From positions 620,001 through 684,000 of the forward strand of contig NZ_WBJR01000001.1 in assembly GCF_009296185.1 (NCBI RefSeq): 64,000 nt of DNA, written 5' to 3'. The translations under genes and the position numbers were made by a program. Every line of letters begins with the position of its first letter. The stretch's first letter is position 1. A model generated the notes under the pieces. The model made no database searches, had not been told where the DNA came from, and saw only the letters and a list, made by a program, of their open reading frames with translations. Source of the DNA: Hydrogenovibrio sp. JE_KL2 (GTDB taxonomy: Bacteria > Pseudomonadota > Gammaproteobacteria > Thiomicrospirales > Thiomicrospiraceae). This document shows positions 10,055-46,154 of the stretch, piece by piece.

Positions 10055-11593
10055 TTAAATAGTGGGTAGCGTGATTTTTATCACTACACCGATTGGCTGA
10101 TTACCTAAATCCATATAGTTAAAAGCTTCGGCCTTACCGTTATGGAAATCAGTAATCAGCTTAACAATATAAAGCCCTAACCCTAGGTGAGCCTGGTTAT
10201 CAGCATTAGTTTCCCTGATAGAGGTCATGCCGTCGAATATCTGTTTCTCAATTGACTGGGGTAGTGCTTTACCTGTATTTTGTACAAGAATTTCTACCTC
10301 ATTTTGAGCATTTAATGCCGCACTAATGGTGATTGGTTCTTTGCCATTATCAAAATCCTTGGCATTACTAATCAACTTGTCCATAAGTTGCTCAAGCATA
10401 AAGCCGTCACCAATGACTTGTGTTTCCGAAGGCATATTGATTTGAATATTGAAGCGGTGATCAGGATTCAATGCAATCACATTCTCTAGATAATGAGTTA
10501 ACATCTCGGAGATGTAGAAGGGTTCTGGTTCCTGCATCGACAAACTTTCTTCAATGCTGTTAGCTTCTGACAAGGAGCTGATGATTTGTTTCAGCTGTTC
10601 TAATGCATGTTTTGAATAGCGAACTTGCTTATGATCAATGTCTTGCTCCAATAATGAGAGAGACATAGACAGGCGATTCATAGGGTTGTGCAACTCATGA
10701 CGCAATGCTTTAGGTAACTGTTTCAAATAGCGTTCATAGGCTGAAAGCTGGCTCAACATATCATGGATATGGTGGCGTAAATCTGAAATTTCATCATAGT
10801 AATAGCGAGGCATAATATCTGGGAAATTAAGTTTATTGACCTTGCCATGCGCATCAAAAGTATTGCGAACATCGTAGTCTAAGCGAGCAATTCGTTTTGA
10901 GAGTGAGGCTATGTAAAATACTGCACCAAAGAAAACAAAAATGAAAATCAATGCGCCCATTCCGATTAAGCGATAAAAACGCTTTAAAGAATCGGTCAGT
11001 AGGCTATTCATAGTTTGTTCTAAAACGATTGCGCCAATAATGTGTCCTCTAAGCTTTAGCGGTGTAGCAGACATTAAAGAAATCGGGTTGTCTTTATACA
11101 TTCGGTATTGCTGGAATGTATGTCCGGAAATTGCCTGGCGAATAAGTGCGACCTCTGGATTGGTGCTTTGAGGGTAGGGATACGGCAGAGTAAAGGGAAT
11201 GACATTGGAAAGTGTTTTGATCAGAAAGTAGCCAACACGGGCAAACCAATCCTTATTCAAATCACTCGGTTGCTGGGAAAGTCGACCCACTACGTAAGTT
11301 ACTTGGCCAAACTCATTGACTATCCATAGTACGGACTTATCCAAGTTCAAATGGCTGAGTTGGTTTGTTGGTGTGCCTGACAGAATTTGCTGTGCCCATA
11401 AATCTGTACGATTTTCAAGGACATAGGATAGGTTTATAACAGTTTGCTGCTGAATGATCGCTTGGTTTTCGAGCAACATTCTGTGAAGATCAATTGCAAA
11501 TCGGTAAGCAAGTGCAGGCAGGAGAGTCAACATCAGAAGCAGTATGTAAAACCGCGTTCTGATGGTTAACCGCATTTTAAAAGAGGGCTTCAT
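10055..11593 (-). CDS. Membrane sensor histidine kinase
   Basis: 512 aa. A first membrane helix (about 13-32), a periplasmic sensor region of about 170 residues with no recognised domain, and a second helix (about 207-230) precede a HAMP-like linker and a HisKA domain with H-box RHELHNPMNRL. A HATPase domain follows (N-box LISNAKDF, G-box GLGLYIVKLI). It overlaps the response regulator gene by ATGA, so the two form a cognate pair. The signal is unknown; the genes lie downstream of rpoN and a cupin gene on the same strand. Confidence 0.88.
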   Translation of the reverse strand: MKPSFKMRLTIRTRFYILLLMLTLLPALAYRFAIDLHRMLLENQAIIQQQTVINLSYVLENRTDLWAQQILSGTPTNQLSHLNLDKSVLWIVNEFGQVTYVVGRLSQQPSDLNKDWFARVGYFLIKTLSNVIPFTLPYPYPQSTNPEVALIRQAISGHTFQQYRMYKDNPISLMSATPLKLRGHIIGAIVLEQTMNSLLTDSLKRFYRLIGMGALIFIFVFFGAVFYIASLSKRIARLDYDVRNTFDAHGKVNKLNFPDIMPRYYYDEISDLRHHIHDMLSQLSAYERYLKQLPKALRHELHNPMNRLSMSLSLLEQDIDHKQVRYSKHALEQLKQIISSLSEANSIEESLSMQEPEPFYISEMLTHYLENVIALNPDHRFNIQINMPSETQVIGDGFMLEQLMDKLISNAKDFDNGKEPITISAALNAQNEVEILVQNTGKALPQSIEKQIFDGMTSIRETNADNQAHLGLGLYIVKLITDFHNGKAEAFNYMDLGNQPIGVVIKITLPTI

Positions 11594-12297
11594 TTTTGTC
11601 GCCAGCTGTAGCCTCGTCCATATTCGTTGTGAATAAGATTAAAGTCGTTATCAACTTTCTTAAATGCGTTTCTAATACGGCAGATGTGGGTATTAATTGT
11701 GTTTCGCTCAACAACACCTTGTGTCGATTCCTGAAGCTTGTCATAAGTGACAACACCTTTCTCGCCAGTTAATGCAAACTGCTTCAGCATTTCAAACTCA
11801 GTTGCAGTCAGGTCTAACACTTGACTATGCCAATAGGCTTTAAATTCATTGTTTGCCAACACCAAACCATCAATTAATGACTTATCACCTTCATCGTTGG
11901 TTTGAATTGAGCCTGTAATGCGTAAAAGATTTTTAACTTTTGCAGTTAATACACCAAGGCTGATGGGTTTTGGCAAGTAGTCGATAGCCCCTAAAGCATG
12001 ACCGGTGTATATATCGAACTCGGATTGACGTTCAGAAAGGAAAATCACAGGAATAGCGGTTTCAAACGATAGCAGGTGTTTAGCAAGCTCAAAACCACCA
12101 TCAATTTCATTTCCCAAAATAATATCGGAAATAACCAAATCAGGCAGGCTCTCTTCAAAGCTAGATTCTGCTGAAGCCCTATCGCTAAAGGTTTTGATTT
12201 TGAAACCTTGTTCTGAAAGTGCCGTTCCTAGGTTTTCCAACTGTAATGGGTCGTCTTCAACAATTGTAATGGTGTAATCATTGTTTAGCATTGCCAT
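11590..12297 (-). CDS. OmpR-family response regulator
   Basis: 235 aa: N-terminal receiver (acidic pair EDD, phospho-acceptor Asp in LVISDIILG, Lys in LPKP) and a C-terminal winged helix (LDLTATEFEMLKQFAL, ending in YGRGYSW). CAGGAAA lies 8 bp before the ATG. It is translationally coupled (ATGA) to the histidine kinase gene. It probably controls transcription; target genes cannot be read from the sequence. The 43-bp gap to the cupin gene suggests cotranscription with rpoN-cupin. Confidence 0.9.
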   Translation of the reverse strand: MAMLNNDYTITIVEDDPLQLENLGTALSEQGFKIKTFSDRASAESSFEESLPDLVISDIILGNEIDGGFELAKHLLSFETAIPVIFLSERQSEFDIYTGHALGAIDYLPKPISLGVLTAKVKNLLRITGSIQTNDEGDKSLIDGLVLANNEFKAYWHSQVLDLTATEFEMLKQFALTGEKGVVTYDKLQESTQGVVERNTINTHICRIRNAFKKVDNDFNLIHNEYGRGYSWRQK

Positions 12298-12339
12298 GAA
12301 TTTTTCCTGTTGTAATTAGGTTTTATAAGATTTTACAAC

Positions 12340-13272
12340 TTAACTGATGTACTGGAAGTCCAAAACTTGCATATTCATAATTAATCCAGCATCTTGAATA
12401 GGCAGTACGATGGCATCTTCGCTTGAATGGTTATGGTGCGAATGCCACCAGCCAGGAGGTGTAACAAATACAGCACCTGGTTCCCACATTGCTTTGATTG
12501 GTTCAACCAAGTTGCCTTCTTCATCAATTTCTTTGCTGATTAAAGTATAGGTATCAGGGCCCGCAGCAACACAGTAATCGATCGCTACAGAGTTGTGTCT
12601 ATGCGGTTTTTGGACAACACCAGCAGGTAGGGCATTATATAAAGACCAGAGTGTATGGGTAAGTGTCATGGTTTTTGGGAAATTAGGGTTCGCCAAAAGA
12701 ATACCGGTTCTATTTCTACCTTCACCTTCACTTCTTACTTTTGCGAGCTCGTTATCCAAACGTTCTTTAGTGTAAAGAACAGGACTAAAACGTTGTTGAG
12801 TAGGCTGTACGCCTAAATACTTCAATAGCGGGGCATCATTTACCCAATAGATAGCAGTGTCTTCCGAGGCAGTGTGCAAAGCACTTTCAATGGATGGTAG
12901 CGTGAAAAGATCACCTGTCTTCCACTCGATAGTGCCTTCAGACATTTGTGTCTTGCCTTGTCCGTTAATGACATAGAACATTTGCGAGGTTACTTTCGCT
13001 GACGTTTTGATGGACTCGCCTTTGCAAATACGAACAAAGTTCGCCAACAAGTTTGGTGAAGTCGCAGGATAGTCAATCTCGAGTGATTTGGATAAATCAA
13101 AAGGAATGATTCGAGTTGGTCCTGATTGATGTAAAGAAGCCGCAAAACTTGCTACATCAATTTTAGGCATTGGCGGGTTCACAGCAGACATGTACTCTTT
13201 AAAGTCTGCCTGTGTTTGCCATTGCTGTTGAGAAACCTCTTGACGTAATTCAACGGATTGATTTGGAATCAT
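12340..13272 (-). CDS. Bicupin-fold protein, gentisate dioxygenase-like
   Basis: 310 aa with two cupin domains. The first (about 95-150) has the fold but no metal-binding histidines in its motif. The second (about 215-300) has PHRHNSVAIDY and PPGWWHSHHNH, giving the His set expected for a metal site. The arrangement resembles gentisate 1,2-dioxygenase and related bicupins, but no aromatic-degradation genes lie nearby, so the substrate is unknown. It sits 31 bp after rpoN and 43 bp before the response regulator, all on the minus strand. Confidence 0.7.
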   Translation of the reverse strand: MIPNQSVELRQEVSQQQWQTQADFKEYMSAVNPPMPKIDVASFAASLHQSGPTRIIPFDLSKSLEIDYPATSPNLLANFVRICKGESIKTSAKVTSQMFYVINGQGKTQMSEGTIEWKTGDLFTLPSIESALHTASEDTAIYWVNDAPLLKYLGVQPTQQRFSPVLYTKERLDNELAKVRSEGEGRNRTGILLANPNFPKTMTLTHTLWSLYNALPAGVVQKPHRHNSVAIDYCVAAGPDTYTLISKEIDEEGNLVEPIKAMWEPGAVFVTPPGWWHSHHNHSSEDAIVLPIQDAGLIMNMQVLDFQYIS

Positions 13273-13303
13273 TGTTAATACTCTTGTTTAATTTTTTATA
13301 AAA

Positions 13304-14794
13304 CTATTTGAATTTGTTTAGTTTTTTGCGATCACTAGAAGAGGGGATACCCATAGATTCGCGATATTTGGCGATGGTGCGTCTAGCCACATTGATTTCT
13401 TTTTCTTCTAGAAGTGACATTAACTTGTTATCGCTCAAAGGCTTGTTTGGATCTTCAGCCTCAATCAGTTGTTTGATGTGCGATTTAATCGCAATGGCCG
13501 ATTGGTCTTCACTACCGTACTGAGAAACCCCTGTCGAGAAGAAATACTTCAGCTCAAATGTTCCTCTGGGGGTTTGCATGTATTTTTGGTTGGTTGCTCG
13601 TGAGATGGTGGACTCATGTAGCTCAAGCGATTCTGCGACGTCTCTCAGCACCATTGGTTGCATGGCTTGTTCGCCCTCGTCAAAGAATCGGGCCTGCCTT
13701 TCGATAATATATTTACCTACTCGCAGTAGTGTCTCACCGCGGCTTTGAATGCTCTTAATAAGGCCTTTTGCCTCAACCAGCTGTTCTTTTATTTTCTTGG
13801 ATTCATCCGACTGTCCTGACAATCCCGACGCCATATTTAAGTAAGCTGAATTAATGGTTAGGCGAGGAAAGGCGTCTTGATTTAATTCAATCAGGAAACC
13901 ATTTTTGGTACGCGAAAGAATTAAATCCGGTGTAATCATTTCACCTTGAGAAGGGGAGTACTCACGCCCAGGTCTTGGGTTAAGTGATTGAATAACCTGA
14001 ATAACTTGATGCAATTCTTCATCATCCAAGAAATAAATCTTCTTGAGGCGCTTGTAGTCTCGCACTGTCAAAAGCTCGAAGTTTTCTTGAATCATTTTTG
14101 TTGCAGTGACAACAAAAGGGTTTTGGTGTAGAGATTTCAGCTGAATTACTAAGCTCTCTGATAAGTCTCGTGCCGCGACGCCAGTAGGTTCAAAGTCTTG
14201 AATAATAGCCAAAACTTCTTCAACATCAGCAAGGCTGATGTCTAGATCGGGCTCTTTATCAAGGATGTCTTGTAGGATTTCATCTAAAGAAACGGTTAAA
14301 AAACCTTCATCAGTAACTTCGTCAATAATGAAAGAGGAAATAAGTTCTTGATTATCTTGCCAAGGATAAATATCTGACTGCCAATAGAGCTTATCTTTCA
14401 AAGTAAGTTCGGCAGAGGTATAAGTATCAGGAGAATTATAGTCATCTAAAGACTGAGCCTTGGAAATTTGAGAGGCACCGTAATCGCTGTAAACTTCGTC
14501 CCATTCACAGTCTATTTCCATGTTGTCGGAAATGGCATCAGCTTGCTCAATATCAATTTCAGACTCGGATGCATCAGGTTGATCTTCGGAAGAAGACTCA
14601 ATTTCAGGAGAAATATCGTCCATATCCTCTTGAAGGTCTTCAACCTCAAGCATAAAGTTACTTTCAAGCGTAGTAGCGATGGTTTGCTGGACTTCAAGTG
14701 CAGAGTATTGCAATATTTTGATAGACTGCTGCAGCTGGGGGGTAAGCTTAAGCTGTTGACCAATATTGATTTGTAATCCAGGCATTAATGCCAT
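13304..14794 (-). CDS. rpoN: RNA polymerase sigma-54 factor
   Basis: 496 aa. Region I is the Gln/Leu-rich N-terminus (LKLTPQLQQSIKILQYS), followed by an acidic region II (about 50-115), the core-binding domain, and the RpoN box ARRTIAKYRESMGI near the C-terminus (standard ARRTVAKYREMLGI). It directs transcription from -24/-12 promoters with AAA+ activators. GGAGAAA precedes the ATG. Unlike the usual lptB-rpoN-hpf-ptsN order, none of those genes is adjacent here. Confidence 0.96.
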   Translation of the reverse strand: MALMPGLQINIGQQLKLTPQLQQSIKILQYSALEVQQTIATTLESNFMLEVEDLQEDMDDISPEIESSSEDQPDASESEIDIEQADAISDNMEIDCEWDEVYSDYGASQISKAQSLDDYNSPDTYTSAELTLKDKLYWQSDIYPWQDNQELISSFIIDEVTDEGFLTVSLDEILQDILDKEPDLDISLADVEEVLAIIQDFEPTGVAARDLSESLVIQLKSLHQNPFVVTATKMIQENFELLTVRDYKRLKKIYFLDDEELHQVIQVIQSLNPRPGREYSPSQGEMITPDLILSRTKNGFLIELNQDAFPRLTINSAYLNMASGLSGQSDESKKIKEQLVEAKGLIKSIQSRGETLLRVGKYIIERQARFFDEGEQAMQPMVLRDVAESLELHESTISRATNQKYMQTPRGTFELKYFFSTGVSQYGSEDQSAIAIKSHIKQLIEAEDPNKPLSDNKLMSLLEEKEINVARRTIAKYRESMGIPSSSDRKKLNKFK

Positions 14795-14980
14795 TGCACG
14801 TTTCTCCTTGAAACCCGAAATTCGCTTTTAAAACTGATTTAACACTATAATAATCGAAAATCTTAAAAATCGGTATGTTTCTTGTTCGAGTTTTTTACAT
14901 GTATATTACAAAAAAAGACGCTAGAATAAGGACGCAAACGCAAATTAGACATTATCAAATGGCATAGATGGAGGGTTATC

Positions 14981-15427
14981 GTGTCAATTAAAGAAGAAGC
15001 AATCAAACTTGTAGAACAGCTTCCTGAAGAAGCCAGTTGGAATGATCTTGTAAAAAGCCTGATTCGTGAACGCAAAATCACTCTTGGATTGACGGATATT
15101 GAAGTGGTTCAGGATCAACTGACAGAAGAAGAATTATCTGCAGTCATCGCAAGGCTTGAATCGGCAAGTTCTGCACACGATGACATGAGAAATACACGTA
15201 AATACAATCCTGATAACGCGCTAACGATTAGCTGGGTTTTGGTGTCATTAGCGCCTTTGCTGTTTATTTCAATTCTTATTGCGCCTGCGGCATATCTATT
15301 ATCTGCGCTTGGAATTGTTTTTGGCGCGAAAGCCTGTATGTCAAAAATTAAAGGCGCATGGTTGCCAACAGTCGTTGGTGTGATTGAGCTTATTTTGTTT
15401 GTGGCATTACCAACAGCTGTTGGTTAA
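14981..15427 (+). CDS. Membrane protein with antitoxin-like N-terminal segment
   Basis: 148 aa, GTG start preceded by GGAGGGTT. Residues 1-60 (LVEQLPEEASWNDLVKSL, then IRERKITLGL) look like small antitoxin proteins of type II addiction modules. Residues about 82-145 form two or three membrane helices. I do not recognise the full-length family. It is divergent from rpoN, and is followed by a repeat-containing hairpin, a terminator and the dif site. No toxin gene is adjacent. Confidence 0.7.
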   Translation: MSIKEEAIKLVEQLPEEASWNDLVKSLIRERKITLGLTDIEVVQDQLTEEELSAVIARLESASSAHDDMRNTRKYNPDNALTISWVLVSLAPLLFISILIAPAAYLLSALGIVFGAKACMSKIKGAWLPTVVGVIELILFVALPTAVG

Positions 15428-15436
15428 TCGTGTAAA

Positions 15437-15454
15437 CCCAACCTGGCAGATTTT
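15437..15454 (-). repeat. Dispersed repeat copy 2 (exact 18-mer)
   Basis: The minus strand reads AAAATCTGCCAGGTTGGG exactly. It lies 9 bp after the stop codon of the upstream gene. AACCTGGC (15440-15447) pairs with GCCAGGTT (15458-15465), so the repeat and a partial inverted copy form a hairpin. Confidence 0.8.
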
Positions 15455-15477
15455 GAAGCCAGGTTGAAAAGAATTTA

Positions 15478-15506
15478 AAAAGCGGCTTAGATGGCCGCTT
15501 TTTTAT
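15478..15506 (+). terminator. Rho-independent terminator upstream of dif
   Basis: AAGCGGC pairs with GCCGCTT around a 7-nt loop, followed by a T run. It comes soon after the repeat-containing hairpin at 15440-15465. Confidence 0.85.
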
Positions 15507-15524
15507 TATTTGAATTCTTATATA

Positions 15525-15552
15525 ACTTCGCATAATGTATATTATGTTAAAT
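15525..15552 (+). other. dif: Chromosome dimer resolution site dif (XerC/XerD)
   Basis: A 28-bp match to E. coli dif: the central hexamer TGTATA and the XerD arm TTATGTTAAAT are identical. The XerC arm ACTTCGCATAA differs from E. coli only at three of its four outermost bases, giving 25 of 28 identical. The site is intergenic, 19 bp after a terminator. dif is where XerC/XerD, activated by FtsK, resolves chromosome dimers, and it marks the terminus region. The match was found by eye. Confidence 0.93.
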
Positions 15553-15624
15553 TCAATGTTTTGTATTGTTGAGCCACCCTTGTATGAAAGAAACTGATGA
15601 TTAGTCAGTCCCCTTCATGAAGTT

Positions 15625-16827
15625 CTAGTCATCTGCAGAAATAGCGTTTTTATGGAAGTAGTTTCTCAATGCATTTTCAAAATGCAGTTGATAGTCCAAT
15701 GAGATGTGACCTTTTTGAAATGGTTCGTCTGGCTTAAGATTTCTGAAATAATGCATCTTCTCAATTTCAGTTTTACCTTTTGGGATTTTGGCTAGCGGTT
15801 CTGGCCATTGTGCCATGCTGTGACAACCTAGACACGAGAACCCGTAGAAATCAAGCGGCCCATTTAATCGACCGCCATAACCCAATCTGCGTCGCGCATA
15901 ACTGGGAATACTATCCATGACGACTGTTTCTTTCAACTTGGCACCGTTTTTCACCATGGTTGGCGTTATTGCAGGGTCATTTCCCCACTGAACACCTAGC
16001 GGCACCATTTTATCCCAGGCACCGTTTTTACCTTCTTTGGCATCTTTATCATAAACAAAGGCGCCCATCACCCAGCTAGTTGTATCATCCGCACGTTTAT
16101 CGCGAATGGAAAAGTCAATTTGAACCAACCTGACCGGCAATACTTTTTTAGGGCTTTTTCTATTGATGGTTTCGTTTATGTTGGCAAGTACGGTTGGCGC
16201 GCCTTGCATAAAAGGTAGTTGCTTGTCGGAACCTGTTATAAAGACGAATTTGGCAATAAAACTGCCTTCTGGAAACTCGGTTTTTGAAAGGTCTGGCGCA
16301 CCTTTTTTTAGGTTTGGCTTGTCGCCATGACACCATATTTGCCCAATTTGATAGGCAGCGTAATCATTATAGAAGCTCAGCTCCCATTTTTGCTGTGGCT
16401 CGGTTTGCGTTGGTGCCAGTTCAAATGGTTTTGCATCCGCATTTCGGTTAAGTCCCCTAACCCCTTCTCTAGCGCGTCTTCCCATGGTAACCCATGGCAT
16501 GTGATACCAGTGATGTACTTTATTTTGTCCTGGGCGCCAATCAGCTTGCTGCATGCCCGCAAAGAGATAGGCTTTGATTTTCTCAAGGTATTCCGAGGGA
16601 TCTTTTTTGAAGTTCCAATCTTCCCAAGGTTTTTGTGTTGAAGGGAGTGTTTTAGGGTAATGGTCATTAAGCTGAAACAATTGCCCTTTGTACTGGCTAC
16701 TAACTTTATCTTGATAGTCAGGAAAGCTACAACTGGACTCGCCAGCGGCCACGCTGCCGGCAGAATAGATCAACGAAAGAACAAGCGTCGTCATTGTTCG
16801 GCGATTTAAACAGTACTTATCAACCAT
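15625..16827 (-). CDS. Exported monoheme c-type protein of unknown function
   Basis: 400 aa from ATG 16827, which has TAAGG just upstream; the open frame extends a further 15 codons into arsC. A signal peptide ends near SAGSVAAGES. A single heme-binding motif CLGCH lies near residue 345. The protein is otherwise rich in W, Y and P, with no second heme motif. The size is large for a monoheme cytochrome, and I do not recognise the N-terminal 300 residues. It is predicted to be periplasmic. It follows arsC-like with a 13-bp gap. Confidence 0.7.
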   Translation of the reverse strand: MVDKYCLNRRTMTTLVLSLIYSAGSVAAGESSCSFPDYQDKVSSQYKGQLFQLNDHYPKTLPSTQKPWEDWNFKKDPSEYLEKIKAYLFAGMQQADWRPGQNKVHHWYHMPWVTMGRRAREGVRGLNRNADAKPFELAPTQTEPQQKWELSFYNDYAAYQIGQIWCHGDKPNLKKGAPDLSKTEFPEGSFIAKFVFITGSDKQLPFMQGAPTVLANINETINRKSPKKVLPVRLVQIDFSIRDKRADDTTSWVMGAFVYDKDAKEGKNGAWDKMVPLGVQWGNDPAITPTMVKNGAKLKETVVMDSIPSYARRRLGYGGRLNGPLDFYGFSCLGCHSMAQWPEPLAKIPKGKTEIEKMHYFRNLKPDEPFQKGHISLDYQLHFENALRNYFHKNAISADD

Positions 16828-16840
16828 CCTTACCAAAGAC

Positions 16841-17209
16841 CTAGTCCATATCATCCAGTAATAAAGCAACATTTTCTGGTGGGCGCCCTATTGCGTATCG
16901 ACCATTGATGTTTACAATCGGACGCTCGATGAGTTTAGGGTTTTGTTGCAGAATCGCCAACCATTCCTCACGTGTTTTATTATCGTCAATGGATAACCCC
17001 AACTCTTTGAAAAGGTCTTCTTTTGTTCTTATCAACTGTTGTGGTTCAATGCCTAATCCCGTACAAATTTCATCAAGTGTGGCAACATCAAGCGGCGTTT
17101 TTTGATAGTCGATAATCTCAATGTCTGGTGTAGCATCACTGCTTTCCAATAATTGTAAAGTTTGTCTGCTTTTTGAGCATCTAGGGTTGTGATAAATCGT
17201 TGCCTTCAT
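16841..17209 (-). CDS. ArsC-family (glutaredoxin-type) reductase
   Basis: 122 aa thioredoxin-fold protein. YHNPRCSKSRQT holds the single catalytic Cys, and RPIV and GRPPE carry the arginines of the arsenate site in ArsC. The nearest family is glutaredoxin-dependent arsenate reductase (ArsC/YfgD type). No arsenic operon genes are adjacent, so the physiological substrate is uncertain. I use ATG 17209, with GAGG upstream; a TTG at 17218 overlapping the xseB end is less likely. Confidence 0.82.
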   Translation of the reverse strand: MKATIYHNPRCSKSRQTLQLLESSDATPDIEIIDYQKTPLDVATLDEICTGLGIEPQQLIRTKEDLFKELGLSIDDNKTREEWLAILQQNPKLIERPIVNINGRYAIGRPPENVALLLDDMD

Positions 17210-17214
17210 TTGCC

Positions 17215-17433
17215 TCAACCTTCGCTATCTTCGTCCACTTTATCTAGTCGCTTATTCAATGCAGATTCCACTGCTTCAATACGTGACTGACACAAGGTGT
17301 AAGCTCTGGTGGCTTCATCAACCATTGGCACCAATTCATCTATGTCAATATTGTCGGACTGAGAGAGTTTTTGCGCAATTTCCTGCAATTTCTCATAGTT
17401 TTTTTGGTAGCTGTTTTCTGTGTTCTGAGCCAT
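17215..17433 (-). CDS. xseB: Exodeoxyribonuclease VII small subunit
   Basis: 72 aa, two helices. NYEKLQEIAQKLSQSDNID and TRAYTLCQSRIEAVE match the XseB hairpin. It associates with XseA to form the single-strand DNA exonuclease VII. It lies 34 bp after xseA on the same strand and 5 bp before arsC-like, so xseA-xseB-arsC is probably one transcript. Confidence 0.9.
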   Translation of the reverse strand: MAQNTENSYQKNYEKLQEIAQKLSQSDNIDIDELVPMVDEATRAYTLCQSRIEAVESALNKRLDKVDEDSEG

Positions 17434-17467: not shown

Positions 17468-19054
17468 CTAATCTTTAATGACTGTCACATCAATAGACCC
17501 GTCTGAAAATTGTATTTCCAGAGTGCCTTGTTGCGTCGCTTGATCTCTAGTGGTAATTGGCTTCTGGCTGTCTTTTGCTTTAACCATTGCAAATCCCCTG
17601 TTCAACTGGGTTTTGGGGCCCGAACTCAAGATAAAGCCAATCAGTTGTTGTGCATTTTGCTTGGCGGACTCCAGTAACTTTGCAGGTCGTGACAACAAAA
17701 TCTCACGATAGTGAGACAAGTTTTGCTTTTGTAGTTGCACCTGGTTGGTTGCCTGATGAAAAATAGCATCAAAACACTGTTCCAAAAGGTGTTGTTGCTG
17801 ATTTAACTTACGAATGCTCTGTTGTTGAATATGGATCATCAATGGCGTCAGGTTTTGTTTATGCATATGTAAGGACTGCAAACTCTTGGTTTGAATTCTG
17901 GACTCCATTTCCTGTAGCTGTTGCTTTTGCCTTTGTACATACAACAAACTCGCCTTTTCAATAAAAAGCCAATTTTGTTTTGCTGTTTGCGCAGATGTAA
18001 CAATAGCACGGTGTACTGCACCAATGACTTTACTCGGCGTGTCAAACCTGACAGCGCACACTTCATCTAAAAGCGTATTGTCTCTTTCATGCCCTATCCC
18101 GGTAAGTACGGGGAGTTGCATGTTTGCAATGGCTTTTGCCAATGCATAATTATTGAGTGGTTGTAAATCAAGCTTAGCACCACCGCCGCGAATAATAATC
18201 AGGGCATCAAAATGATTGGATTGATGCAGCGCCAGGAAAGCTTCAAAAGCCAGCAGCATTTCTTTCTCGACGTTTTCACCTTGAAATGCCGAATAGAAAT
18301 ATTTGAATTCGCATAACTTGTGCTTAACCAGCAAGTCAGCATCGGCTCGAAAATCACCAAGCCCAGCCGCAGATGGCGGTGCGATAACCGCAACACGATA
18401 AAAGTCTTTCGGCATAGAGAAGGTTTTGTTTTTATCGTAAAGCTTTTCGCTGATCAGTTGTTTCCGGATAGTCTGTAGAGCAGCTTCCAACTCACCTAAT
18501 GTGAAGCTTGGGTCAAGGTCTTGAATAACCAATGAAAAACCGAATTTCTCATGGAATGTCGGTTCAACCATCAACAAAACTTTTTGACCAGGTGCCAGTT
18601 CTGATCCTGTTTCGTCTGCAAACTTTCTTAAAAGCCTTTCTGCTTGGCTTTGCCAAATCATCGCACGACAAGTCGCCAGTTGAGCACCCTCTTCGGTCGT
18701 CTCGGTCAACTCAAAATACCAGTGCCCTCTTCGCTCATTCATATTGGCAACTTCTGCCGTTACCCATACTGCGCCAGTAAATTGTTTACGAATCGCCAAT
18801 TGAACCTGAGACATTAACTGACTCAGCGGAATGCCCTTTTCTTTTTCATTCGAAGACGTTGCTTCATTACTACCCGGAAGGACTATTTGCTGAGTTGATT
18901 CATGTGTGGCATCTTGAGGTAGCCAACGCTCAAATGGCGAAAGATCAGATGACAAGTCATCAGGAACATACCATTTTTTTTCAACCGGATTCCAGCGAGC
19001 GCCGACAGACTTGGCAATATCTTTTTCGGCAAATGGCACTTCAAGCAGAATCAT
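17468..19054 (-). CDS. xseA: Exodeoxyribonuclease VII large subunit with extra N-terminal domain
   Basis: 528 aa (E. coli 456). Residues about 2-46 (LEVPFAEKDIAKSVGARWN, then KKWYVPD) form a DUF5710-type module not found in standard XseA. An OB-fold follows (about 75-180), then the catalytic domain and long coiled-coil helices. The catalytic segments RGGGAKLDLQPLNN and GIGHERDNTLLDEV keep the GxxHExD pattern but differ from the common RGGGSLEDL and GHETDFT forms, so this is a divergent XseA. It is coupled to dusA by ATGA. Confidence 0.9.
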   Translation of the reverse strand: MILLEVPFAEKDIAKSVGARWNPVEKKWYVPDDLSSDLSPFERWLPQDATHESTQQIVLPGSNEATSSNEKEKGIPLSQLMSQVQLAIRKQFTGAVWVTAEVANMNERRGHWYFELTETTEEGAQLATCRAMIWQSQAERLLRKFADETGSELAPGQKVLLMVEPTFHEKFGFSLVIQDLDPSFTLGELEAALQTIRKQLISEKLYDKNKTFSMPKDFYRVAVIAPPSAAGLGDFRADADLLVKHKLCEFKYFYSAFQGENVEKEMLLAFEAFLALHQSNHFDALIIIRGGGAKLDLQPLNNYALAKAIANMQLPVLTGIGHERDNTLLDEVCAVRFDTPSKVIGAVHRAIVTSAQTAKQNWLFIEKASLLYVQRQKQQLQEMESRIQTKSLQSLHMHKQNLTPLMIHIQQQSIRKLNQQQHLLEQCFDAIFHQATNQVQLQKQNLSHYREILLSRPAKLLESAKQNAQQLIGFILSSGPKTQLNRGFAMVKAKDSQKPITTRDQATQQGTLEIQFSDGSIDVTVIKD

Positions 19055-44789: not shown

Positions 44790-46154
44790 ATGAAAAGGCA
44801 AGATACCCCCAGTTTGACAGAAACAGAGAAAAATAGATTCATGGATAAAGTCATGGACATTAACGGTTCGCTTATCGGAAACATTTTAGGATTGGACGTA
44901 GGGACATCTGGCATTCGCGCAACCGTGGTATCACCAACAAATGTCTTATTGCATACCGATCAAGAAGAAATGCCCTTTCCCACCCGTGACAATACCATTA
45001 GTGAGCAATCACCTGCAGTATGGGAGGATAGCCTGAAGCGCTTGTTGAAGAGATTGCAGCTAAATTCTGTTTTACCCGAAATAAAGTATATCGTTGCTGA
45101 TGCCACCTCATCTACTGTCTTGTTAATGGACGACCATTTAACACCACTAACCCCTGCCCTTATGTATGACGATAAAAGAGCCGTTGAACAGGCAACTAAA
45201 ATTACCGAATACGCACCAACTAATAGTGCTGCTCATGGCTCCTCTTCAACATTGGCAAAAGTAATGTGGCTGGAAGAGTCTCTTCAACAAAAACCGTCTC
45301 AAAAAGGTTACAAAATTGCACACCAAATTGACTGGGTGAATAGTTTTTTTACTCAAGCGTCATGCCCTACTGATGCCAACAATGCTCTAAAACTAGGGTT
45401 TGATCCAGTTGAAAATAAATGGCCCGACTGGGTTCAGCAACTTGTAAACTCCCCTCTTCCAGAAGTTGTCATGCCGGGAACGGTTATCGGCAAACTTTCA
45501 CCAGCCATTGCTGATACCTACGGGTTTTCGAATGAGGTTCAAGTGCTTGCCGGCACAACGGACTCGATTGCTGCCTTTTTGGCTTCCGGTGCAAAAAAAC
45601 TTGGCGATGCAACGACTTCACTTGGCTCAACTTTGTGTTTAAAACTCTTAACGGATAAACCTATATTCAGTCCTGAGCATGGCATCTACAGTCATATTTT
45701 AGGTGACCTGTGGCTGGTTGGTGGCGCATCTAATACTGGTGGCGCCGTATTATTGAAATACTTTACACTCCCTGAAATCATTCAGCTTCTGGATGAAATT
45801 GATATCAATCAGCCAACAAATTTAGATTACTACCCACTTCTGACGCCAGGCGAACGTTTCCCCATAGCAAACAGCGACCTACAACCCAAAGTATCGCCTC
45901 GTCCATCAGACGATCAGAACTTTCTTCTGGCACTCATTGAAGGGCTGGTTGGTATTGAAAAACTGGGTTATGAACTCCTTGAACAGTTGAGTTCGACTCA
46001 GATACAAACGATTTATACCGCTGGTGGCGGCACAAAAAATACAGCCTGGATGGCTTTGCGAGCAAACCGTCTCGGCTATAAAACAAAAAAAGCGGCTCAA
46101 ACAGATGCCGCTTTTGGCGTAACTCAGCTTCTTTTTAGAAGCTTTGGTCAATAA
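44790..46154 (+). CDS. FGGY-family pentulose kinase (D-ribulokinase-like)
   Basis: 454 aa if started at ATG 44790; ATG 44841 or 44853 may be the true start since none has a clear SD. GLDVGTSGIRATVV is the N-terminal phosphate motif; AGTTDSIAAFLASG, TSLGSTLCLK and TAGGGTKNTAWMALRAN follow the FGGY fold. The best guess is a kinase of D-ribulose or a similar pentulose. It is convergent with cbbY. Its last codons contain the probable cbbY terminator. Confidence 0.82.
   Translation: MKRQDTPSLTETEKNRFMDKVMDINGSLIGNILGLDVGTSGIRATVVSPTNVLLHTDQEEMPFPTRDNTISEQSPAVWEDSLKRLLKRLQLNSVLPEIKYIVADATSSTVLLMDDHLTPLTPALMYDDKRAVEQATKITEYAPTNSAAHGSSSTLAKVMWLEESLQQKPSQKGYKIAHQIDWVNSFFTQASCPTDANNALKLGFDPVENKWPDWVQQLVNSPLPEVVMPGTVIGKLSPAIADTYGFSNEVQVLAGTTDSIAAFLASGAKKLGDATTSLGSTLCLKLLTDKPIFSPEHGIYSHILGDLWLVGGASNTGGAVLLKYFTLPEIIQLLDEIDINQPTNLDYYPLLTPGERFPIANSDLQPKVSPRPSDDQNFLLALIEGLVGIEKLGYELLEQLSSTQIQTIYTAGGGTKNTAWMALRANRLGYKTKKAAQTDAAFGVTQLLFRSFGQ
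46085..46115 (-). terminator. Terminator for cbbY embedded in the FGGY kinase gene
   Basis: AAAAGCGGC (46088-46096) pairs with GCCGCTTTT (46107-46115). On the minus strand the stem ends in seven T (46091-46085), the expected form for ending transcripts from cbbY, whose stop is at 46164. On the plus strand it is coding sequence (KKAAQTDAAFG). Confidence 0.7.

Follow-up and report, generated by a model that had tools for sequence, protein, structure and literature searches.

The stretch of DNA analysed here (the window, 64,000 bases) corresponds to positions C1:620001-684000 of a draft genome that comprises 2,438,885 bases in 15 contigs. Two convergent ORFs, both 90 aa or longer, terminate at 15427 (+) and 15625 (-); the gap of 197 bases between them contains a 28-base sequence closely resembling dif, the short DNA at which bacteria separate two joined chromosomes. 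The features of the region are listed in Table 1. The 415-aa protein, whose gene lies between dif and arsC, contains a CxxCH motif (read by eye), and a similar protein is present in 3 of the 3-kb loci retrieved from 29 relatives. The xseA product has an N-terminal DUF5710 domain, and the proteins of a related genus discussed below (g2) appear by eye to begin in the same way. Rfam and tRNA scans of the window returned four tRNAs only. The rpsA gene of the window gives a 92 % match both to Hydrogenovibrio sp. SC-1 and to a Piscirickettsiaceae MAG, and on this basis the genome is assigned to Hydrogenovibrio or its vicinity. A family-wide linkage between rpsA and dif was considered and rejected, as a dif sequence with up to four mismatches was found in the flank of 4 of 55 named rpsA loci, many of these flanks being truncated.

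Table 1. The dif site, its predicted parts and neighbouring features (window coordinates)
Feature	Position	Strand	Basis or remark
First KOPS octamer to the left of dif, oriented towards it	11172..11179	+	
rpoN (sigma-54), transcribed away from the 148-aa gene	13304..14794	-	Three sigma-54 Pfam domains
148-aa gene, no hit in Pfam or NCBIfam; conserved beside rpoN and dif	14981..15427	+	Within 1.5 kb of dif in 26/29 relatives' loci
Probable terminator, a hairpin and then a T run, past the end of the 148-aa gene and before dif	15480..15505	+	Read by eye from the sequence, no tool score
dif site, 28 bases	15525..15552	+	25/28 identity with the E. coli site; one copy in the window and in the genome
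XerC-binding arm, 11 bases (predicted)	15525..15535	+	11-6-11 layout as given in PMC2731167 (available text); holds all three mismatches to E. coli
Central hexamer TGTATA, predicted place of strand exchange	15536..15541	+	Same as E. coli; positions 13-15 of the 28-mer vary between genera
XerD-binding arm, 11 bases (predicted)	15542..15552	+	Invariant in 30/30 aligned family sites (search with up to 3 mismatches)
415-aa gene, no hit in Pfam or NCBIfam; transcribed towards the 148-aa gene	15625..16872	-	Pfam/NCBIfam search
arsC-family gene, conserved setting	16841..17218	-	PF03960; adjoins dif in relatives
xseA (exonuclease VII large subunit), conserved setting	17468..19054	-	PF02601; adjoins dif in relatives
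First KOPS octamer to the right of dif, oriented towards it	45152..45159	-	

Against what we take to be the reference sequence of E. coli dif, 25 of the 28 bases at 15525-15552 (+) are identical. The three mismatches, at positions 1, 2 and 4, all fall towards the outer end of the XerC arm, and the TGTATA centre and the XerD arm TTATGTTAAAT are the same as in E. coli. A first-pass annotation had reported this degree of identity and had described the site as intergenic and unique; it is borne out on each point, there being no second match with three or fewer mismatches in the window. None of 100 dinucleotide-preserving shuffles of the window contained a match at this level, and the uniform chance of one over both strands is about 1.6×10−7. 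The annotation also expected a genome search to find one site only. When the genome was searched with the last 25 bases of the site, allowing up to three mismatches, a single match (C1:635528-635552) was indeed found in the 15 contigs, between which gaps remain, and a reversed control 25-mer gave no match at the same limit. The near-consensus sequence, its 28 bases arranged as 11-6-11 and its single copy in these 15 contigs (with the gaps between them) are as expected of a proteobacterial XerCD dif site, the arms being defined in this way in the available text of a 2009 survey (PMC2731167). The P. aeruginosa dif site, as printed there, is two bases from that of the window, and it is in outer bases of the XerC arm only that the window site differs from the E. 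coli and P. aeruginosa sites.

The annotation placed the chromosome terminus in the window and predicted that both cumulative GC skew and the polarity of FtsK-orienting octamers would switch near the site. Raw cumulative GC skew reaches its maximum at 15804, 265 bases from the dif centre, and the site thus lies at the skew switch as proteobacterial XerCD dif sites do; the GC change point spans a broad interval (positions 11587-16965 come to within 0.5 of the peak value), and keto skew has its change point at 18164, 2.6 kb from dif. The skew at third codon positions was split by gene strand to part the effect of replication from that of transcription. Measured on the + strand, it is +0.099 in + genes and +0.079 in - genes to the left of dif, and -0.128 and -0.098 respectively to the right; since it reverses in genes of both strands, the switch is independent of gene direction. 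The annotation had further held that dif explains the mixed gene strands around it. Strand use does reverse across the site (11 +/4 - on the left and 13 +/29 - on the right, counting greedily called ORFs of 100 aa or more), but the cause is the place where the replication arms meet and not dif itself.

The octamer prediction held on contig C1, where all 22 occurrences of the KOPS octamer GGGNAGGG converge on dif, 16 of 16 being in forward orientation before it and 6 of 6 in reverse orientation after it, with the flip between C1:631172 and C1:665152. On other, unordered contigs the orientations can be mixed (11+/6- on C10 and 6+/5- on C2). A reversed control octamer, GGGANGGG, also flips: without the word common to both patterns, it counts 6+/2- to the left of dif and 1+/5- to the right, less cleanly than KOPS treated in the same way (8+/0- and 0+/5-). 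The agreement of all 22 octamers is good evidence for a replichore switch and, because the control flips too, weak evidence of FtsK-specific selection; the role of KOPS itself is established work, as described in the available parts of PMC2680272. With skew and octamer polarity both switching at dif, the terminus does lie in the window, and the site fixes it on a draft genome in which dnaA lies on another contig (C2) from dif (C1). Replication would probably end near dif and not necessarily exactly at it, in line with the argument of Kono et al. (PMC3025954, available text) that termination occurs near dif rather than at the site.

Four phage-integrase domain matches were found in the genome, two of them of Xer size. 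Of these two, one is a XerD homologue, scoring 360.9 bits where the cut-off is 329.6, and the other a XerC homologue for which XerC is the best model at 323.1 bits, 12 bits under the cut-off of 335.15. An FtsK gamma homologue (E-value 5.1×10−26) lies on the same contig as dif. XerC and XerD are 35-40 % alike, and both keep, by eye, the R, HxxR and Y motifs that we take to be the expected set. A genome carrying all three genes, XerC, XerD and FtsK gamma, together with a site of the same 11-6-11 form, centre and XerD arm at a skew switch, matches the XerCD/dif system of Proteobacteria such as E. coli and P. aeruginosa, as far as the available text of PMC2731167 describes it. The sequence at 15525-15552 is almost certainly the chromosomal dif of a sulfur-oxidising, Hydrogenovibrio-related gammaproteobacterium, with a function read from that of known XerCD/dif systems. 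On this established model, recombination that joins two sister chromosomes would create a dimer; FtsK, steered by the oriented KOPS, would pair the two dif copies at the septum and activate XerD, and XerC and XerD, each presumably bound to its arm, would recombine the two copies by strand exchange within the central hexamer, splitting the dimer. The site itself is ordinary, expected biology and is well supported. A literature search for the dif site of Thiomicrospira crunogena found no paper, although supplementary tables, which lay outside the search, may include dif sites from this group; one for Hydrogenovibrio XerC returned only a Sulfobacillus paper, by title.

The dif core, with up to three mismatches, is present in 54 of 62 genomes of the family, and in all 17 of those assembled as one contig its distance from dnaA is 0.44-0.50 of the chromosome length (with genome sizes rounded to 0.1 Mb). 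Thirty sites were aligned, from those of the 54 dif-bearing genomes that were returned as loci, the present genome included. The XerD arm is invariant in all 30 and the inner XerC arm mostly so, with variation in the centre at positions 13-15; the limit of three mismatches favours such apparent conservation. Position 15553, just past the XerD arm, is T in all 30 sites. Within 1.5 kb of dif, 28 of the 29 relatives' loci carry one or more of rpoN, the 148-aa gene, arsC and xseA, and in the remaining relative (G032) all four are found in the wider stretch. Two genomes (G012 and G022) have arsC and xseA adjoining dif, with neither the 148-aa gene nor rpoN in the wider stretch. The setting of rpoN, 148-aa gene, dif, arsC and xseA is largely conserved across genera and offers an anchor for locating dif in the family, whereas the survey cited above describes, in its available text, dif in differing genetic environments. 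An apparent pair of dif copies in one genome (G037, L157 and L158) was rejected, as these are overlapping contig ends, 97.6 % identical over 421 bases, and represent one locus.

A sequence of this kind could also be the attachment or resolution site of a phage or plasmid that uses XerCD, and the exact 25-base core does occur in 64 viral stretches. An element integrated at dif would, however, leave two copies; no pair of dif-like copies flanking an element was found in this genome but a single copy among housekeeping neighbours, and its setting conserved across genera and its place at the skew switch make an origin in a mobile element very improbable. We consider it highly unlikely, too, that the site is a relic on which XerCD no longer act. 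Such a relic might be suspected from the XerC score slightly under the model cut-off and from the related genus g2, in which neither dif nor XerC/XerD is recognisable, but in the sites aligned, found at up to three mismatches, the XerD arm and the greater part of the inner XerC arm are unchanged, a conservation that needs selection, and XerC and XerD retain their expected motifs. We note that 45 of the 64 viral stretches (L162-L225) are on contigs shorter than 13 kb; they are possibly elements that integrate at dif.

No match to the dif core with up to three mismatches was found in 8 of the 62 family genomes. Four of these cases resemble gaps in the assembly at the terminus: in G011 the end of xseA is 391 bases short of a contig end and no rpoN was found, in G035 a contig end cuts rpoN, and in G019 and G057 neither rpoN nor xseA was found. 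The other four (G001-G004, with completeness of 97, 100, 81 and 99 %) make up the entire genus g2, a sample of four draft genomes that possibly reflects one evolutionary event. Among drafts of about 50 or more contigs, dif is missing from 4 of 25 outside g2, compared with 4 of 4 within it. All four g2 genomes keep rpoN adjoining the 148-aa gene and have xseA elsewhere; since the 148-aa gene is beside rpoN here also, where dif was not found, it is linked to rpoN rather than to dif. The g2 stretches around rpoN and xseA contain no dif within seven substitutions, the four xseA flanks have no 14-mer in common, and a loose genome-wide dif pattern gave, among the matches listed, fewer hits in each of the four genomes than its reversed control (14 vs 27, 21 vs 25, 28 vs 48 and 55 vs 56). 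In G001, G002 and G004 skew does not change sign along the rpoN stretches, and the rpoN position is hence not a clear terminus in these genomes; in G004 skew changes sign near xseA. With the anchor, absence of the system from g2 can be distinguished from assembly gaps, which suggests a natural loss of XerCD/dif in a closely related genus.

Searches of the four g2 genomes for tyrosine recombinases gave 15 matches (E-values up to 10−15), all of 116 bits or less, whereas XerC and XerD from two g1 genomes reach 137-180 bits. The eight returned as loci, the other seven being weaker matches, are 24-37 % identical to XerC or XerD of the present genome, where the g1 proteins are 67-98 % identical, and no orthologue of XerC or XerD was found among these 15 matches, eight of them compared. 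Nor do the g2 recombinases form one close orthologous set: those of G001 and G002 are 97 % identical, and other pairs 28-45 %. One of them adjoins genes that we take to resemble parts of a conjugative element. To name these recombinases as the replacement for XerCD would be a guess, given that they are not one orthologous set and that one is located by conjugative-like genes.

According to PMC2731167, 12.2 % of species have no dif motif, Legionellales included, and XerL, a single recombinase acting with dif, was later described in Legionellales (PMC9765430, available text). By its description the Legionellales dif/XerL system, which is not what the window carries, does the same job in gammaproteobacteria without XerC/XerD and is a possible model for g2. 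Whether g2 lost dif, XerC and XerD together, kept rpoN and the 148-aa gene as ancestral neighbours, and resolves dimers by another system, perhaps a divergent tyrosine recombinase of 300-326 aa, as an independent XerL-like case, seems to us evenly balanced. If the loss is real, the intact system of the window would represent the ancestral state for comparison. The joint absence of dif and XerC/XerD from g2 is the one lead of interest. Among 55 named loci compared, the pyrF genes of three g2 genomes are nearest to that of a MAG labelled Thiomicrospira cyclica SulCav, at 79 %.
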